From: a virus
Direction: 5' to 3' (one strand)
IMG/VR virus record: IMGVR_UViG_3300013138_000045
Location: 1-23,848 of that record
Length of the DNA stretch: 23,848 bases
The notes beneath the pieces were generated by a model. The model was not told where the DNA came from and made no database searches. It saw nothing but the letters and a program-made list of their open reading frames with translations. Position numbers and translations under genes: made by a program. Each line of letters begins with the position of its first letter. Positions within the stretch are counted from its first letter, which is position 1. Positions 2,959-19,755 of the stretch are shown here, piece by piece.

Positions 2959-3857
2959 ACGATGTAGCACACGACGGCATTGGACTGATTGACCTCGACT
3001 GCGACTTTGCCATAATAACCCGCTGGGTCAGGAAGCTCCATTTCCCATATCTCACCGTGCTTAAAGCCGAACTCACCGCCCGCCGGAACGCCCTGCTTAT
3101 CGGTTCCCGGCCCGAGGATGACCCTGATATAGGCATCCTTGTCACGGGGTTCTTCCAGTTTTTCATCCGCGTAATGAGACAGGATTCTCAGCTTCCGTCC
3201 CGGCTTGTCCGCATATCCCGTCCACCATCTGCCTTTGTCCGTGGCTGATTCCATGCGCATATCGTCATCCTCCTCAGTTTCAATTTTCTGTGTCTGAAAC
3301 GGCCATTGGCCGAAGTCGTCCCGTTTGGCCTCGTTGAAATCTACGGTGTCATTCCACTCGCCGTTGGAATACTGATAGAGGCAGGCGTTGTCAGACACCC
3401 TACCGCCGCTCCAGGCGTAGGTTTGCCAGCCGTAGGCGATGAGTCCGCACTCGTAAAGGTGGTCGATGATGTCGGCCTCACCGTAAGCGCCCGTGCGGGT
3501 GAAACCGAGCAAGTCCCTGACACCCCGGAAATAATCCTCAATGAGCGGCCAGTCACGCTCAGAGGTGTCGAAATCGACAGCGAAATAGATAGGTCTGTTG
3601 ATCGGTTGCCCTACGCCCTGCGCCTGCGCATAGGCCGCCTGCGCGTCTGCCTGCCCGCCAGAGTATCCGGACATGACCCGATTGGCGTATGTCTCCCAGA
3701 CCAGCACGATGGAAAGTCCGGCGGCAAGGGCCGCGTCAGCCTCAGCCCGATTGATATTCTTGCCGGGCGAGTAGGATAGGTAACGGCAGATGAAGTCGAA
3801 GCCCTGCGATTTTACATAGGCTTCATTTTGGCGTGTGGAATAATCAAGTCCCTGCAT
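2955..3857 (-). CDS. Endolysin, DUF1906 glycoside-hydrolase-like domain plus C-terminal domain
   Basis: A 300-aa peptidoglycan-degrading enzyme candidate. Residues 1-190 match the DUF1906 (Rv2525c-like, GH25-type TIM barrel) pattern: MQGLDYSTRQ at the N terminus, FDFICRYLSYSPGK, LSIVLVWE, PIYFAVDFD with acidic active-site candidates, TGAYGEADI, and a final WQTYAWSGG / LYQYSNG / VDFNEAK. A Glu/Asp linker (KIETEEDDD, about residues 193-200) leads to a ~100-aa C-terminal domain (ATDKGRWWTGYADKPGRKLRIL...), probably cell-wall binding. Start ATG has GGGGAGGGAAA upstream. It follows a membrane-protein gene that may be the holin. No signal peptide is seen, so release probably depends on a holin. Confidence 0.8.
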   Translation of the reverse strand: MQGLDYSTRQNEAYVKSQGFDFICRYLSYSPGKNINRAEADAALAAGLSIVLVWETYANRVMSGYSGGQADAQAAYAQAQGVGQPINRPIYFAVDFDTSERDWPLIEDYFRGVRDLLGFTRTGAYGEADIIDHLYECGLIAYGWQTYAWSGGRVSDNACLYQYSNGEWNDTVDFNEAKRDDFGQWPFQTQKIETEEDDDMRMESATDKGRWWTGYADKPGRKLRILSHYADEKLEEPRDKDAYIRVILGPGTDKQGVPAGGEFGFKHGEIWEMELPDPAGYYGKVAVEVNQSNAVVCYIV

Positions 3858-12835: not shown

Positions 12836-13421
12836 GATTACGTTTGTAGAGATCGAGGATGACTTTTACCTCTGCCGGAATGCTCGATTCAGAGCCATCC
12901 CAGGTGACGGAATAATCGCCGATCTTCTCACTCTTCACTCCGGGGGAGCTGGCGGTAAGAAAAGCAACTACAAGCCGCGTGGCCGCTTCTACAATGTCCG
13001 GCGGCAGGTTGGCTATCGCTGCGCCTTGGCCGGCCACGTAAGTGATGGCGATGTTCTGCTCGTCGTCGTTAAAGGCAGTTTCACTCGTGGCTATGCTTTT
13101 GAGTTTGACGATGCCCTCGGCGCCGTATATTAGAATCTCCGTTGATGCACTGATAGTGACTGCGGTTCCACCTGTCGGCGTATCCGTTAGCGCCGAAACG
13201 CTCACAATCGGCGAGTGGTCGAGCATGATTTCCCGTGTGCCATCGCCGTCATATTTTTCTGTGTAGGTCGTATTCACAAAGTTGCAGCCGCAATAGCTCT
13301 CGATGAAGCTGGAAACGCGGTCAATGGCGTTCTCAAGCTGCGTGGTTGACCAGCTCGAATTATAGCCCGGAGCGTTCTGGATATTGGTTGTGGTTGTGAT
13401 CGCGTTTGCCGCTGTACCCAT
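12825..13421 (-). CDS. Head-tail connector, gp6-like
   Basis: A 198-aa helical connector candidate. QLENAIDRVSSFIESYCGCN is the conserved first helix (sites of about residues 28-47), followed by a beta insertion (YTEKYDGDGTREIMLDHSPI) and C-terminal helices (PPDIVEAATRLVVAFLTASS ... SIPAEVKVILDLYKRNHVV). This pattern is characteristic of HK97 gp6/SPP1 gp15-like adaptors that form a ring under the portal. The ATG shares its A with the stop of the glycosyltransferase gene (TGATG). Confidence 0.85.
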   Translation of the reverse strand: MGTAANAITTTTNIQNAPGYNSSWSTTQLENAIDRVSSFIESYCGCNFVNTTYTEKYDGDGTREIMLDHSPIVSVSALTDTPTGGTAVTISASTEILIYGAEGIVKLKSIATSETAFNDDEQNIAITYVAGQGAAIANLPPDIVEAATRLVVAFLTASSPGVKSEKIGDYSVTWDGSESSIPAEVKVILDLYKRNHVV

Positions 13422-14491
13422 CAGGCCGCTACCTTTCTTGCTCGCTCAATCTCCTGCTCATAGACACGCGCCCACTTACCATAGCAAGTGAAGATGTTTC
13501 GCTTGGTGGTGACGAACCTCTGCGCCTCGCGGATTATCTTTTCCCGGCGGGAATCGTCTTTTAGATATTGAACCGCCTCGTACCATTCTTCGGGGTCATC
13601 GCCGACCAGGAGACCGTTAGCGCGATTGGTTATCGTGGTTCGGTATTGGCCGACCTTGGACGCGATAGTGGCGGCACCGGCCATTGAGTATTCGAGGAAC
13701 TTAAGATCACTCTTGCCGATATCGTTGAATGGTTCATTCACCAGCGGAACGAGCCCGATATCAAAGACACTCATGCGAAATGGATACTTTTCGTGATCGA
13801 CATAGCCTTGCGATATCACACGCTTGGCCACGCCGCCATCGGGATTTTCAAAGAGGTCCGCCGGAACGTAGCCCTGCAATTCAACCTCAAACACCTGCTC
13901 ATCTGAGAGCCGTTCGATGAGTGGTTTCACTATTCGCAAATCTTCCTTGTGGGTATGACATCCCATCCAGCCCACACAGGCATAACGCATCTCGGGGCGG
14001 CTGAACTGCCAACGAGTATTACCCACGTCGATCATGTTCGGCAATACGTAATAAGGTTTATCGAACATCTCACCGAAGTGATGCCCCAGTGATTCACAGG
14101 TTGCGGTGATCGCCGAGATATATGGCCAGACCTTTTTTTGACGCTCCCAGTTATCCCGGTTACGCTCCGGCCAGAGTTGTCCCGCTTTATCTGCGGCCAT
14201 ATCAAGCGTATCGTCAACGTCCATGATAACCGGCTTACCCATATCGCGGGCAAGTTTGAACAATTCGACGTTGGCCGGGTTGTCGCTCATCTGAGCGATG
14301 ACGGCATCACACCAGGATAGGGCGCCGAGGATGTTCTTGGCAGCTACCTTCTTATCGCCATCGGCCCTCTTTAAGAATTCATCACCGTGAGCCACTTTGG
14401 CGATACCTTTATCTTCAAGCACCCAGGCAGGATATTTGAGCCGGTAGATGCCCGAAGTGTTCTCGCGGGGGTCGAAAAGATATAGCTTCAT
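13421..14491 (-). CDS. GT4-like glycosyltransferase (GT-B fold)
   Basis: A 356-aa protein from ATG 14491 (an upstream in-frame TTG at 14497 is less likely). The first half carries MKLYLFDPRENTSGIYRL..., AVIAQMSDNPANVELFKLAR and KPVIMDVDDTLD; the second half has the GT4 nucleotide-sugar domain: YACVGWMGCHTHKEDL, FDIGLVPLVNEPFNDIGKSD, LKFLEYSMAGAATIASKVGQ, NGLLVGDDPEEWYEAVQYL. These enzymes move a sugar from a nucleotide donor to an acceptor. The gene lies inside the head module between capsid and connector, which suggests that a virion protein may be the acceptor. Acceptor and sugar are unknown. The C-terminal E-rich helix is normal. Confidence 0.85.
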   Translation of the reverse strand: MKLYLFDPRENTSGIYRLKYPAWVLEDKGIAKVAHGDEFLKRADGDKKVAAKNILGALSWCDAVIAQMSDNPANVELFKLARDMGKPVIMDVDDTLDMAADKAGQLWPERNRDNWERQKKVWPYISAITATCESLGHHFGEMFDKPYYVLPNMIDVGNTRWQFSRPEMRYACVGWMGCHTHKEDLRIVKPLIERLSDEQVFEVELQGYVPADLFENPDGGVAKRVISQGYVDHEKYPFRMSVFDIGLVPLVNEPFNDIGKSDLKFLEYSMAGAATIASKVGQYRTTITNRANGLLVGDDPEEWYEAVQYLKDDSRREKIIREAQRFVTTKRNIFTCYGKWARVYEQEIERARKVAA

Positions 14492-14504
14492 CGCCAAAAA
14501 TACT

Positions 14505-16977: not shown

Positions 16978-19755
16978 CTAGTCGATTACTGGTAAAACAG
17001 TGCAGGTGCAGTTGTGTGTTATAATGTTATCTGCCATATACCAATTCAATTTAGTGGAAAGGTTATAGACGTGGCCGCAAAAATCGACCTGCCTAACTTT
17101 GACGATCTTGTCAGCCGTTACCAGTCCGGGGAAAGCCCGCGACAGCTTGCCGAAGAATGGGGCGTCAGTCGCCCTACTATCATTCGCAAACTCTTTGCTG
17201 CCGGCGTCCAGATCAGAGGCCCGGAGGAAGCCAGCGGGGTATTCCTTGCCAGCACTACCGCTGAGTTTCGCAAGGCTCGCGTTGCCGCTGCTCATGAGGC
17301 GCGGCGAGGCGCTCGTGATAGCGTTACCGCCAAACGAAGGCGTGCCGCCACTCGCGAGGCTCGTTGCCTGCATACCAGTCCCGCTGAGAACAAGCTCACC
17401 GCCATGCTGAGACGACGGGGTCTCAGCATCACGCAACAGAAGGCTATTGATATTTACAATGTCGATATTGCCATACATGAACCTTCCATCGCCGTGGAAA
17501 TCTTCGGCGGAGGGTGGCATGGATACGGAAAACACTCCCAACGCCACGGCAGCAGACTCAAACACATTCTCGATAGCGGTTACAGTGTGGTCGAGATATG
17601 GGTCGATGGTCGCCGCTACCCGCTCGGGGTCGGAGCAGTTAATCAGATAGTCGCCCTTGCCGAGATGCTGCGCGGCGACGAATCCCTTATCAGTCAGTAT
17701 CGGATGATTCGGGGTGACGGTAGTTCTCACACCGGAAGAAGTCCTAATCTCTATGACCGGTCCTGAATAAGAGGTACGCTGCGCCTCAAGTAGACCGGGA
17801 GCAATTACCTGCGCCCCTGGGATGTAGCAATTCGGATGCGCTGGCTCAGATGACACGTCAACGCCGGGAAAGTCGTCACCGATATTCACGGTCTGCCCGT
17901 CAGCTTCTTCACATATGCCGGAAGAGCAGGGGCCGGAACCGAATATCCATTCAACCTGAGTCACATCGTTCGAGCGGTAACTCTCAAGTTGCCCATTGCC
18001 CCAGGCATTAGCCGACTCGGTGCGGGCTATCATCTCTGCCCGGTAACTTGATGCATCGGTAAAGACGCCTTGGACGCGTTTTTTCATTTCCTGATAACCT
18101 TCGCCTCCGGAGATGCCGGCGGTTATCTGGTCCTGTAACTTGGTGAGCGTGGTTGATGTAACCTGCTCGGCGAGTTTCTGACCGATCTTCCCTGCGGCTT
18201 CGATAACATAGGTATTCTCGATATCCCAGGCGATTGTGCCACCGACGAGTTGTTCCCCATTCATGGCGCCGGCTACGATGGCCGCTTTAAGCTGATCGTA
18301 AATGGCGGTATGAGTCAGCCCTTGTTCATCCATCTCGTTGAGCAGTTCGGACGCCGTGAGCTTATTCTGAAGGCTCTTGCCTACCAGTTCTGCCAGCCGC
18401 TTGAGAGCCCGCTTCATCTGATCGTCGAACAGTCCCTTCATCGCTGCTGTCATCTCATCGGCTATGGGAGTCAGCAGCCGGTCACGTGCCGCAAACGACT
18501 TCTTGACCCGTATCTTCGCCAGGGTGTCACGCTTGGCTTCCTTGCCGTGCGAGCCGCCACAGCCGCATGACTTCTCAGACTTCGCCGGCGGTACATCGAT
18601 AAAAGCATTGTTATTTCTAACTGGCGGCTCATCACCCCATGCCACTGGCTCCTGACCACGTGACTCACGCACTTCATTAATGGTGGCCAGTCCTACCTCG
18701 ATCTCTTTGACCTCACGCTCGGAGCGTTTATTTTTATCCTCAGCCAGCGCCTCTACTTGAGAGAAGTCGAACTGACAGGTAACGCCGGCGACAGTGCGCG
18801 GCAACACTTCACGGTTCAGGATCGCCGCGAGCTTGTTGCAATCGCTCTTAATGATGCCACCGTAAAACATCTTCAACTGCGCTTCGGAATTGGCATAGTT
18901 GGCATATTCGAACAGACCAACCATCGCCGGGTAACATTCCATCCCTGCAATGATCTCTTCACGTGACAGTTTAGCCTGTGCCAGAAACTCCGCGTCCTTA
19001 GGCGATAGTGCCACCGGATTTAACTTGAGCCCGCCGGTGAGGATCATCGGATTATGGGCGTTCTGATAACCGCCATGCTTCTTTCTAAGCGCCGCTTTCA
19101 ATCGTTTAATGACATCCTTGTTAGGACTGCCATCAGACTCAAGGACATAATCAGGACGGGCAGAGTTTAAAAAGAAGTTCTTGCCGTACTTGCGGATATA
19201 TTCGCCGGTGTCTATCGCCAGAGCCATCGACTCAATAGGGCTCATCCCGTACCAGTCGTTATAGGGATGCTCATACTTGGAATGAACGACCTGTTCACGG
19301 GGGAAGTCTTGTGCCTTGCCATTGACCGTATGAGTGTAGCCGATAGGCACCCTTAGCCCGGGTTTCACTGTCATGCGGTCTGTCCTCATTGGATAGATGC
19401 GACCGATGCGACTGCCGACCAGGGCAAGTTCCCAGTAAGCGTTCCCGGTAAGCGCCATGAACAGTTCCCATGACTCGATGAGATCCGTGAGGCTCATCTC
19501 TTCGTTTGGGTTTTTTAAGATCGGCGGCGTGTCAATCGGCTTACCGTTGCGGGAGAAGAGTAGCGGCACGCTTGACACTGCCTTAGCACGGGCTGAGGCA
19601 CAACGGTAGACCCACACTTCCGAGCCGTAAGTCTGCTCGAAAGCAAGATAATCCTTCGGCCTTTCGGCCCCATAGCCGCCATAACCCATAATGACATCAG
19701 GGCTGGCTTTCATGTCACCAACGGCCAGATATTTGAGGTTCTGCCAGAGGTTCAA
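16978..19755 (-). CDS. Portal-MuF fusion protein containing an intein
   Basis: A 925-aa precursor. Residues 1-390 are an HK97-type portal (KDYLAFEQTYGSEVWVYRCA, LTGNAYWELALVG, EYIRKYGKNFFLNSARPDYV, EFLAQAKLSREEIIAGMECY), through which DNA is packaged. After a SCGCGG linker, residues about 415-642 plus 916-925 are a MuF minor-head domain (SYRAEMIARTESANAWGNGQ, CSSGICEEADGQTV, final HPN|CTCTVLPVID). Residues 643-915 are an intein (see separate entry); splicing would give a 652-aa portal-MuF. The ATG overlaps the terminase stop as ATGA. Portal and MuF are more often separate genes. Because both essential head functions sit in one chain, they depend on splicing if the intein must be removed. Confidence 0.92.
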   Translation of the reverse strand: MNLWQNLKYLAVGDMKASPDVIMGYGGYGAERPKDYLAFEQTYGSEVWVYRCASARAKAVSSVPLLFSRNGKPIDTPPILKNPNEEMSLTDLIESWELFMALTGNAYWELALVGSRIGRIYPMRTDRMTVKPGLRVPIGYTHTVNGKAQDFPREQVVHSKYEHPYNDWYGMSPIESMALAIDTGEYIRKYGKNFFLNSARPDYVLESDGSPNKDVIKRLKAALRKKHGGYQNAHNPMILTGGLKLNPVALSPKDAEFLAQAKLSREEIIAGMECYPAMVGLFEYANYANSEAQLKMFYGGIIKSDCNKLAAILNREVLPRTVAGVTCQFDFSQVEALAEDKNKRSEREVKEIEVGLATINEVRESRGQEPVAWGDEPPVRNNNAFIDVPPAKSEKSCGCGGSHGKEAKRDTLAKIRVKKSFAARDRLLTPIADEMTAAMKGLFDDQMKRALKRLAELVGKSLQNKLTASELLNEMDEQGLTHTAIYDQLKAAIVAGAMNGEQLVGGTIAWDIENTYVIEAAGKIGQKLAEQVTSTTLTKLQDQITAGISGGEGYQEMKKRVQGVFTDASSYRAEMIARTESANAWGNGQLESYRSNDVTQVEWIFGSGPCSSGICEEADGQTVNIGDDFPGVDVSSEPAHPNCYIPGAQVIAPGLLEAQRTSYSGPVIEIRTSSGVRTTVTPNHPILTDKGFVAAQHLGKGDYLINCSDPERVAATIDPYLDHTVTAIENVFESAAVALGVFSVSMPPSAEDFHGDGRFMYGNIDIVNINSLLLRDAETPSSQHGGELVLSGTGMQATSLASGGTPSFGGNAITSASPRLMSSGNASLAKLSGSAGKEYPAGFLRASDLDAGSKEFANDSRATDAPFFGKLSRAFPGLVTADKIVKVRQVDFCGHVYNLSTKLNWYMADNIITHNCTCTVLPVID
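17017..17025 (+). promoter_or_regulatory. Extended -10 promoter for antisense endonuclease, inside intein block G
   Basis: The plus strand reads TGTTATAAT, a perfect TGnTATAAT extended -10. No good -35 exists at 16-18 bases upstream, as is typical for extended -10 promoters. Transcription would begin near 17032, 39 bases before the GTG at 17071. The same bases, read on the other strand, encode the end of the intein (I-I-T-H region). Confidence 0.65.
17056..17062 (+). promoter_or_regulatory. Ribosome-binding site deciding GTG 17071
   Basis: GGAAAGG lies 8 bases before the GTG at 17071, ideal spacing. It is the reverse complement of intein block F codons (around Asn898-Ser900 of the precursor). 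It favours 17071 over the upstream in-frame GTG at 17014, which lies before the proposed promoter. Confidence 0.65.
17071..17766 (+). CDS. Antisense homing endonuclease: HTH plus Vsr/DUF559-like (EDxHD) PD-(D/E)XK nuclease nested in the intein
   Basis: A 231-aa protein encoded entirely inside the intein on the opposite strand. Residues 8-48 are a helix-turn-helix (DDLVSRYQSGESPRQLAEEW, GVSRPTIIRKLFAAGV). Residues 60-102 are a basic Ala/Arg linker. Residues 103-180 are a Vsr-like PD-(D/E)XK nuclease: E106 in SPAENKL, QQKAI, D132 in YNVDIAI, E143 in VEIFGGGWH with W149-H150, then LDSGYSVVEIWV. This is the EDxHD-type arrangement seen in phage homing endonucleases. Start GTG 17071 is chosen by GGAAAGG at 17056-17062 and the extended -10 promoter. 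Its codons are in exact register with the intein's (residue r pairs with precursor residue 896-r). It is the only credible plus-strand gene here. Expected role: cutting intein-free portal-MuF alleles to drive homing. Confidence 0.9.
   Translation: MAAKIDLPNFDDLVSRYQSGESPRQLAEEWGVSRPTIIRKLFAAGVQIRGPEEASGVFLASTTAEFRKARVAAAHEARRGARDSVTAKRRRAATREARCLHTSPAENKLTAMLRRRGLSITQQKAIDIYNVDIAIHEPSIAVEIFGGGWHGYGKHSQRHGSRLKHILDSGYSVVEIWVDGRRYPLGVGAVNQIVALAEMLRGDESLISQYRMIRGDGSSHTGRSPNLYDRS

Follow-up and report, generated by a model that had tools for sequence, protein, structure and literature searches.

We conclude, with a probability of roughly 0.88, that a phage portal-MuF gene carries an intein whose DNA also encodes a homing endonuclease, on its other strand and in codon register with the sense frame. 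The gene lies in the window that we analyzed, 23,848 nucleotides of virus DNA (IMG/VR record IMGVR_UViG_3300013138_000045, positions 1 to 23,848). The computational support comes from both reading frames, selection on them, the two folds, start signals, empty sites, and inteins common to unrelated exteins. As we picture it, a Hint domain, in two halves around a largely unstructured linker, would splice itself from the capsid protein, which would make the insertion harmless. A 231-aa protein, made from its own start signals inside splicing blocks F and G, would bind DNA with a helix-turn-helix (HTH) and cut it with a Vsr-like (EDxHD) core. Its targets would be intein-free MuF genes, cut close to the insertion site, and their repair would then copy the entire two-strand unit into the recipient. 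The sense linker would be largely a reverse-complement shadow of the nuclease gene.

A sequence-only reading of this DNA had proposed an intein with its homing endonuclease encoded antisense, and knew of no other such case in inteins. Both frames held up, and none of the refuting outcomes that it named appeared: relatives keep the antisense frame open, that frame is under purifying selection, and the predicted structure is a Vsr-type PD-(D/E)XK fold. The arrangement is no isolated oddity; it is normal in its family. We lean toward the view that this is a widespread, undescribed class of two-strand inteins in which the splicing element and the homing endonuclease share DNA codon-in-register on opposite strands, with a promoter element, a ribosome-binding site and a start codon for the endonuclease in the splicing blocks, so that the conserved linker motif EDFHGDG..IDIV is largely a shadow of the nuclease active site.

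The intein and its host gene

The host gene is a portal-MuF fusion ORF of 925 aa on the minus strand (16978..19755), interrupted by the intein and recognized by profile search (Phage_portal E 5e-60, Phage_Mu_F E 1e-10, Intein_splicing E 1.6e-8); the Intein_splicing Pfam score of the host protein is 35.0 bits against a cut-off of 35.8. The complete class 1 intein that had been proposed for this gene was found, with exact coordinates 17829-17011 on the minus strand. It runs for 273 aa from Cys1 (17827-17829) to Asn273 (17011-17013), followed by the +1 Cys (17008-17010), and its junctions read HPN|CYIPG...NIITHN|CTC. Block B is TVTPNHPIL (17695..17721, minus strand), whose complement encodes nuclease residues QYRMIRGDG, block F is FCGHVYNLST (17053..17082, minus strand), opposite which lie the ribosome-binding site and start codon of the nuclease, and block G, assigned from sequence, is NIITHN (17011..17028, minus strand), whose complement contains TGTTATAAT.

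In the AF2 model of the intein, the Hint halves (aa 1-65 and 237-273) have a pLDDT of about 90 or more, and a Foldseek search with this model gave inteins as the best matches, with the Mtu RecA mini-intein (2imz) at the top. The window intein is thus predicted to have a Hint fold, and it would probably splice autocatalytically, judging from conserved residues and selection. Linker residues 129-220 (17170..17445, minus strand), opposite nuclease aa 34-125, are predicted to be disordered, with an AF2 pLDDT of about 35. We rejected the sense linker as a true in-frame endonuclease, as the host protein has no nuclease family match and the linker is largely predicted disordered. A split intein or fractured gene was also rejected, because the sense ORF is single and continuous in the window and likewise in 180 loci, with one locus (L124) the exception.

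The antisense nuclease gene

The antisense gene (17071..17766, plus strand; GTG start, stop at 17764-17766) lies wholly inside the intein, codon-in-register with the sense frame. Its frame is open from 16996 to 17763, and a start at the upstream GTG (17014) would lengthen the protein to 250 aa. As the sequence-only reading had it, the 231-aa product combines an HTH with a Vsr-like nuclease. The HTH (aa 10-43; 17098..17199, plus strand) was seen by profile, AF2, and structure search (Hin/Mos1-type HTH), and the nuclease core (aa 104-214; 17380..17712, plus strand) by conservation in 24 and 54 homologs and by fold search. The catalytic residues named earlier are all present, with codons at 17386-17388 (E106), 17464-17466 (D132), 17497-17499 (E143), and 17515-17520 (W149-H150). 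Among 54 nuclease homologs, E106, D132, and H150 are invariant and E143 is conserved in at least 90%; conservation of H150 is lower in a wider homolog set.

The antisense protein is modeled by AF2 at a pLDDT of 90.6, and a VIA structure search with this model gave Z scores of 11.7 for Vsr (1cw0), 11.5 for NGO0050, and 10.3 for I-Bth0305I (3r3p), over 96-112 residues. Profile searches with the nuclease reached PDB entries that the structure search also found, and matched MTES_1575 (E 9e-6) and HTH_7 (E 4e-5). On its own, the window protein missed the Pfam gathering scores for MTES_1575 (26.0 vs 38.2 bits) and DUF559 (19.2 vs 20.6 bits), and 52 of the 54 nuclease homologs matched MTES_1575 at E 0.01 or better. 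The predicted structure is a Vsr-like PD-(D/E)XK fold, and we infer that the protein cuts DNA and does so with specificity.

Recurrence among relatives

The nested two-strand arrangement, with a continuous sense ORF, was found in 180/189 fetched loci from diverse phages, a set fetched with antisense queries and so biased in its counts; of the other nine, most sit at contig edges or have broken frames, and one is a free-standing nuclease. In 78 new loci fetched with the nuclease core minus the part opposite block B, the arrangement was present in 76, the other two being contig edges. When inteins were fetched by sense N-terminal sequence alone, the antisense nuclease frame was open in 64/66, so relatives do keep it open; such sense-fetched sets counter the antisense-query bias but rest on one sense query only. 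In the diverse relatives checked, the in-register antisense frame is open over 720-969 nt, while the other two antisense frames contain 3-37 stops. A single nonsense codon interrupts the antisense frame of a few copies (L189 and five others). The N and C parts of the L124 intein fall in separate frames, with a break in the nuclease too, probably through one frameshift. A natural control is L251, an intein in another gene, which has no antisense nuclease and 9 register stops. Family members include Gordonia and Mycobacterium phages, and a plasmid search gave only two matches, one of them in a phage minor head gene. By these sequences, which put the two-strand design in hundreds of diverse phages, an antisense nuclease is the rule across a large family of MuF inteins and is not peculiar to the window phage.

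Selection on both strands

In 136 unique inteins, the codons whose complements are stops are nearly missing from the overlap, where TTA/CTA make up 2/2901 Leu codons and TCA 2/3352 codons, against 798/4434 (18% of Leu) and 456/3007 (15% of Ser) in the exteins of the same genes. The sense-fetched set gives 1/1209 and 5/1136 in the overlap, with 284/1750 and 175/1190 in the exteins. Substitutions per codon at sense positions 1/2/3 are.252/.176/.492 in exteins and.306/.085/.186 in the linker, and among independent pairs sense position 1, which is the nuclease wobble position, exceeded position 3 in 15/15 linkers and 0/15 exteins. Amino acid identity in the overlap is 79% for the antisense frame vs 70% for the sense frame. 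This reversed pattern by codon position supports purifying selection on the antisense frame, in line with the sequence-only reading. The intein ends beyond the nuclease gene have an ordinary sense pattern (.105/.068/.414 and.023/.020/.217), and by this measure they appear to be under strong sense-type selection.

Start signals in the splicing blocks

Opposite block F, a Shine-Dalgarno-like GGAAAGG (17056..17062, plus strand) is found in the sequence 8 nt before the GTG at 17071; the family consensus is TGGAGGTTATAAACATG. In 104/136 inteins, the distance between the nuclease start codon and the intein end is exactly 60 nt. Measured against synonymous-codon nulls, Shine-Dalgarno 5-mers are present in 59% of the family vs 12%, and a perfect TATAAT is present in the block G region in 46% vs 6%. 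The block F Leu codon is CTC in 77/99 (22% background) and the block F His codon is CAT in 93/110 (44% background). The window copy itself has a GTG start and a Shine-Dalgarno sequence weaker than the family consensus. Opposite its block G, TGTTATAAT (17017..17025, plus strand) resembles an extended -10 element by consensus match only. A sigma-70 two-hexamer scan of the window gave no promoter site at TGTTATAAT or elsewhere; the family-wide enrichment of the -10 element alone is the better promoter test.

Signs of mobility

The MuF gene of phage St161 is uninterrupted and 94% identical, and a comparison of vB_STM-ZS with St161 gives an empty site with the junction HPN|CRS; the comparison covers a relative, vB_STM-ZS, in place of the window phage. 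Two inteins (L034 and L045) are 61% identical in unrelated exteins. In Acinetobacter phage IME285, a free-standing nuclease homolog lies next to a MuF gene that has no intein. The clean empty sites, and the inteins common to unrelated exteins, agree with homing; homing and the timing of expression are what we infer.

Alternative explanations

As a rule, an antisense ORF stays open most easily when it is in register with the sense frame, and the window has further antisense ORFs of 189-213 aa, so length alone is unexceptional. On one reading, the antisense ORF is a side effect of how the sense strand is coded and of codon bias, and avoidance of TTA, CTA, and TCA by the phage keeps it open. Unless the selection signal were an artefact of alignment or sampling, we find this hardly credible, as these codons are common in the exteins and almost absent from the overlap, substitutions gather at nuclease wobble positions, the predicted protein is a confident model with a Vsr match, and a free-standing homolog exists; a chance ORF is ruled out by the tests of codon usage, codon position, fold, and free-standing homologs. 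It is also quite improbable that the nuclease is real and selected while the sense side no longer splices, so that the capsid works with the insertion or after terminal cleavage only. The penultimate His is replaced by Ser/Lys/Arg in 80/136 inteins and about 5/136 lack a Cys at the first position as detected, which could point that way, although splicing is still possible in known inteins without the penultimate His. Against it, the +1 Cys is present in 136/136 and Cys1 in 131/136, the intein ends show their strong sense-type pattern, the Hint halves are predicted at high confidence, and the window copy retains Cys1, TPNH, HN, and the +1 Cys.

An antisense protein that is made and selected mainly for another role, such as control of the late operon or exclusion of rival phages through cuts in their MuF genes, seems to us unlikely. 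Phage homing endonucleases are known to act against competitor genomes, an HTH plus a nuclease could do so in trans, and among Guernseyvirinae some have the antisense-nuclease intein and many do not. However, the conserved site inside an intein, the clean empty sites, and the inteins common to unrelated exteins fit homing, and exclusion would be an added effect that offers no alternative origin.

If the reading of a two-strand intein with a homing endonuclease is right, the element is a fully overlapping selfish one, in which a single stretch of DNA encodes on one strand the protein that conceals the insertion and on its opposite strand the enzyme for spreading it. The family also offers many natural examples of two unrelated folds that overlap antisense and in register, a question debated until now mainly on the evidence of ancient synthetases. 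An endonuclease may lie hidden on the opposite strand of inteins that are annotated as lacking one, in which case surveys of intein mobility undercount. Guernseyviruses offer direct testing, as intein-plus and intein-minus relatives exist.

Comparison with known systems

The literature that we searched contained no mention of an intein with an antisense endonuclease; a preprint on actinobacteriophage inteins of 'non-canonical architecture' (Gosselin, Arsenault and Gogarten 2025, bioRxiv 10.1101/2025.01.02.630785, cited in PMC11855218) may describe something similar. Canonical bifunctional inteins (VMA inteins, PI-PfuI) are alike in their class 1 Hint domain, conserved host-gene site, and endonuclease-coding DNA that lies between block B and block F. 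They carry the endonuclease, usually of the LAGLIDADG or HNH type, as an in-frame part of one polypeptide, whereas the window intein has a separate Vsr-like protein encoded antisense and a sense linker much of which is predicted disordered.

With Vsr-like EDxHD homing endonucleases such as I-Bth0305I (3r3p), and with their DNA repair relative Vsr (1cw0), the window nuclease has in common the predicted catalytic fold and the E, D, E, and H residues. Work by Dassa in 2009 and Taylor in 2011 is said to place the EDxHD homing members free-standing, in group I introns, or between split-intein halves, while the window nuclease is nested antisense to a contiguous intein. The fractured phage genes of Dassa et al. 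2009, reportedly split inteins with a Vsr-like endonuclease gene between the halves, are alike in joining an intein and a Vsr-like endonuclease in phage genes. In the window, by contrast, the sense ORF is unbroken, and the nuclease gene shares its DNA on the other strand. Some group I introns also have an endonuclease gene that runs antisense to the spliced element. What is spliced there is RNA, with no need for the sense strand to be translated, whereas in the window intein both strands must be read as protein.

The ShiLan insertion has a hidden HNH endonuclease in the third frame relative to its host gene (PMC11855218), and it too is mobile and read through in frame in a phage gene, with its endonuclease in another frame. 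That insertion is without splicing domains, and no Shine-Dalgarno sequence was detected in it, whereas the window has what appears to be a true intein, with an opposite-strand, in-register gene and Shine-Dalgarno signals of its own.

A nuclease gene nested antisense to an intein

The portal-MuF fusion gene (16978-19755, minus strand, 925 aa) hosts a 273-aa intein at 17829-17011 on the same strand (HPN|CYIPG ... TVTPNHP ... GHVYNL ... NIITHN|CTC). The sequence-only reading had placed a 231-aa nuclease ORF wholly within this intein on the opposite strand, and this is borne out: the plus strand has an in-register frame without stops between 16996 and 17763, and the gene runs from a GTG at 17071, a start position conserved in the MuF intein family, to a stop codon at 17764-17766, and every nuclease and intein residue named in that reading was found in the window sequence at the position given. 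The length of the antisense ORF by itself is unremarkable in the window, and therefore the case depends on comparison with relatives.

Portal and MuF form a single ORF in this phage (16978-19755, minus strand) and are separate genes in the annotated relatives examined. A glycosyltransferase-like gene (13421-14497, minus strand; phrog_7162, E 9e-29) lies between the major capsid and head-tail adaptor genes.

Distribution among relatives

With the antisense protein as the tblastn query, 132 phage records were matched, including phages of Salmonella, Pseudomonas, Gordonia, Klebsiella, Vibrio, Acinetobacter, Haemophilus/Aggregatibacter, Edwardsiella and Rhodococcus, and nearly all of the matches listed lay under either a MuF (head-morphogenesis) gene or one with no name. 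The intein sequence as query gave 129 records from largely overlapping organisms. Relatives do keep the antisense frame open: in diverse intein loci inspected individually, the in-register frame is open over 720-969 nt, whereas 3-37 stops interrupt the other two antisense frames. Of 189 loci from viral and genome collections, 180 have a single sense ORF that holds both intein parts, N and C, in full, and the antisense gene is nested in it. Since these 189 loci were collected using antisense queries, we repeated the search with only the N-terminal 63 aa of the intein as query, and the antisense nuclease was seen in 64/66 of the loci fetched, all but L251 and L254. A nuclease-core query, which leaves out the part opposite block B, fetched 78 new loci, of which 76 were nested and two were cut by contig ends.

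The L251 intein (3007-3843), in an apparent terminase gene, has the flank SDAFRYLG, a block B resembling that of the MuF intein family and an unrelated linker, and it has no antisense nuclease. In locus L124 (576-2193) the intein N and C parts do not share a frame, and the antisense nuclease is broken as well, by either a single indel breaking both genes or a sequencing error. Five family members (L019, L082, L087, L104, L162) lack a Cys where the intein was detected to begin; class 2/3 chemistry or decay may explain this. In Salmonella phage PK2 (L006, 1501-2310) the antisense ORF is annotated as a hypothetical protein, which is rare among public records.

Selection on both strands

The sense codons TTA, CTA and TCA each read as a stop on the opposite strand. 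In 136 unique inteins, TTA/CTA make up 2/2901 Leu codons in the overlap versus 18% in the exteins of the same genes, and TCA 2/3352 Ser codons versus 15%; the sense-fetched set gives 1/1209 versus 284/1750 for Leu and 5/1136 versus 175/1190 for Ser. We compared related genes in 15 independent pairs. For codon positions 1/2/3 the differences per codon come to.252/.176/.492 for exteins and.306/.085/.186 for the intein linker, with position 1 exceeding position 3 in 15/15 linkers and 0/15 exteins. Because sense position 1 is the antisense wobble position, selection in the linker acts mainly on the nuclease product, so the antisense frame is indeed under purifying selection. At the intein ends, beyond the nuclease gene, the usual sense pattern holds, with values of.105/.068/.414 and.023/.020/.217; close to block B, positions 1 and 3 differ about equally. 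Given the nuclease pattern in the linker and the sense pattern at the ends, both strands are read and maintained.

Predicted folds

The AlphaFold2 model of the antisense protein (mean pLDDT 90.6) has a helix-turn-helix, then helices, then the Vsr-like core that had been anticipated. VIA-align matched it to the Vsr-DNA complex 1cw0 (Z 11.7, rmsd 2.2 over 112), NGO0050 3hrl (Z 11.5, 1.8 over 90) and homing endonuclease I-Bth0305I 3r3p (Z 10.3, 2.8 over 96); Foldseek ranked these structures at the top too, but with E 0.002-0.03. Profile search agrees. Of 54 nuclease homologs, 52 match MTES_1575 and 28 match a PHROG with the name homing endonuclease. E106, D132, H150 and R162 are invariant in the 54 homologs and E143 is kept in at least 90%. 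A wider set of 24 members shows no variation at D132, E143 or R162 and almost none at E106.

The intein model, with inteins as its top structural matches, has two confident Hint halves, residues 85-128 with pLDDT near 80, and a linker (129-220) at about 35. Intein length classes of about 270 and about 320 aa track one versus two HTH-like nuclease segments, and thus the antisense gene shapes the sense linker.

Expression signals inside splicing blocks

The nuclease start codon is the complement of the block F (GHVYNL) His codon. Its distance to the intein 3' end is exactly 60 nt in 104/136 inteins and 63-69 nt in most others; where the His is shifted by one or three residues (L014, L016), the start codon shifts along. 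The Shine-Dalgarno is the complement of VYNL (family consensus TGGAGGTTATAAACATG). Block F Leu is CTC in 77/99 (P about 4e-32 against a background of 22%), and the His codon is CAT in 93/110 (P about 4e-18 against 44%); these P values assume independence of 112-117 dereplicated sequences that are not fully independent. Shine-Dalgarno 5-mers occur in 59% versus 12% with synonymous shuffling, and perfect TATAAT, mostly 32 or 51 nt upstream of the start, in 46% versus 6%. The window has a TATAAT-type element, TGTTATAAT, at 17017-17025 and a Shine-Dalgarno-like GGAAAGG at 17056-17062 ahead of GTG 17071, both on the plus strand.

Probable mobility and insertion sites

In Salmonella phage St161 the MuF gene is uninterrupted, and its protein is 94% identical to the joined exteins of vB_STM-ZS; the exact HPN|CRS junction of the latter is an empty site there. 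The inteins of loci L034 and L045 are 61% identical, and their exteins have no significant similarity. Most inteins use the commonest insertion site, MuF HPN|CRC; from our reading of the flanks, those of KMB36 and Sejanus appear to occupy other MuF positions. Locus L189 has a stop within an otherwise good nuclease and an intact intein, which is what a homing endonuclease in decay should look like. Acinetobacter phage IME285 (L010, 455-1348) has a free-standing nuclease homolog convergent with an uninterrupted, intein-less MuF gene, and since its upstream sequence is still similar to the block F complement, this homolog may descend from an intein.

By computation, then, two genes share one stretch of DNA and both are under selection; their folds and signals, and the pattern of presence and absence, are those of a mobile intein. 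The sense product would splice, the antisense product would cut close to the junction of an empty MuF gene, and repair would then copy the whole unit into the cut gene.

Comparison with known systems

The components, inteins and Vsr-like homing endonucleases, are already known. Searches of a collection of open-access papers that takes in part of the journals and no bioRxiv preprints turned up no description of an intein with an antisense endonuclease. In a sentence on overlapping frames, PMC11855218 cites a 2025 preprint on the non-canonical architecture of actinobacteriophage inteins. The ShiLan insertion has a hidden HNH encoded on the same strand (PMC11855218), whereas the nuclease of the MuF inteins is encoded on the opposite strand.
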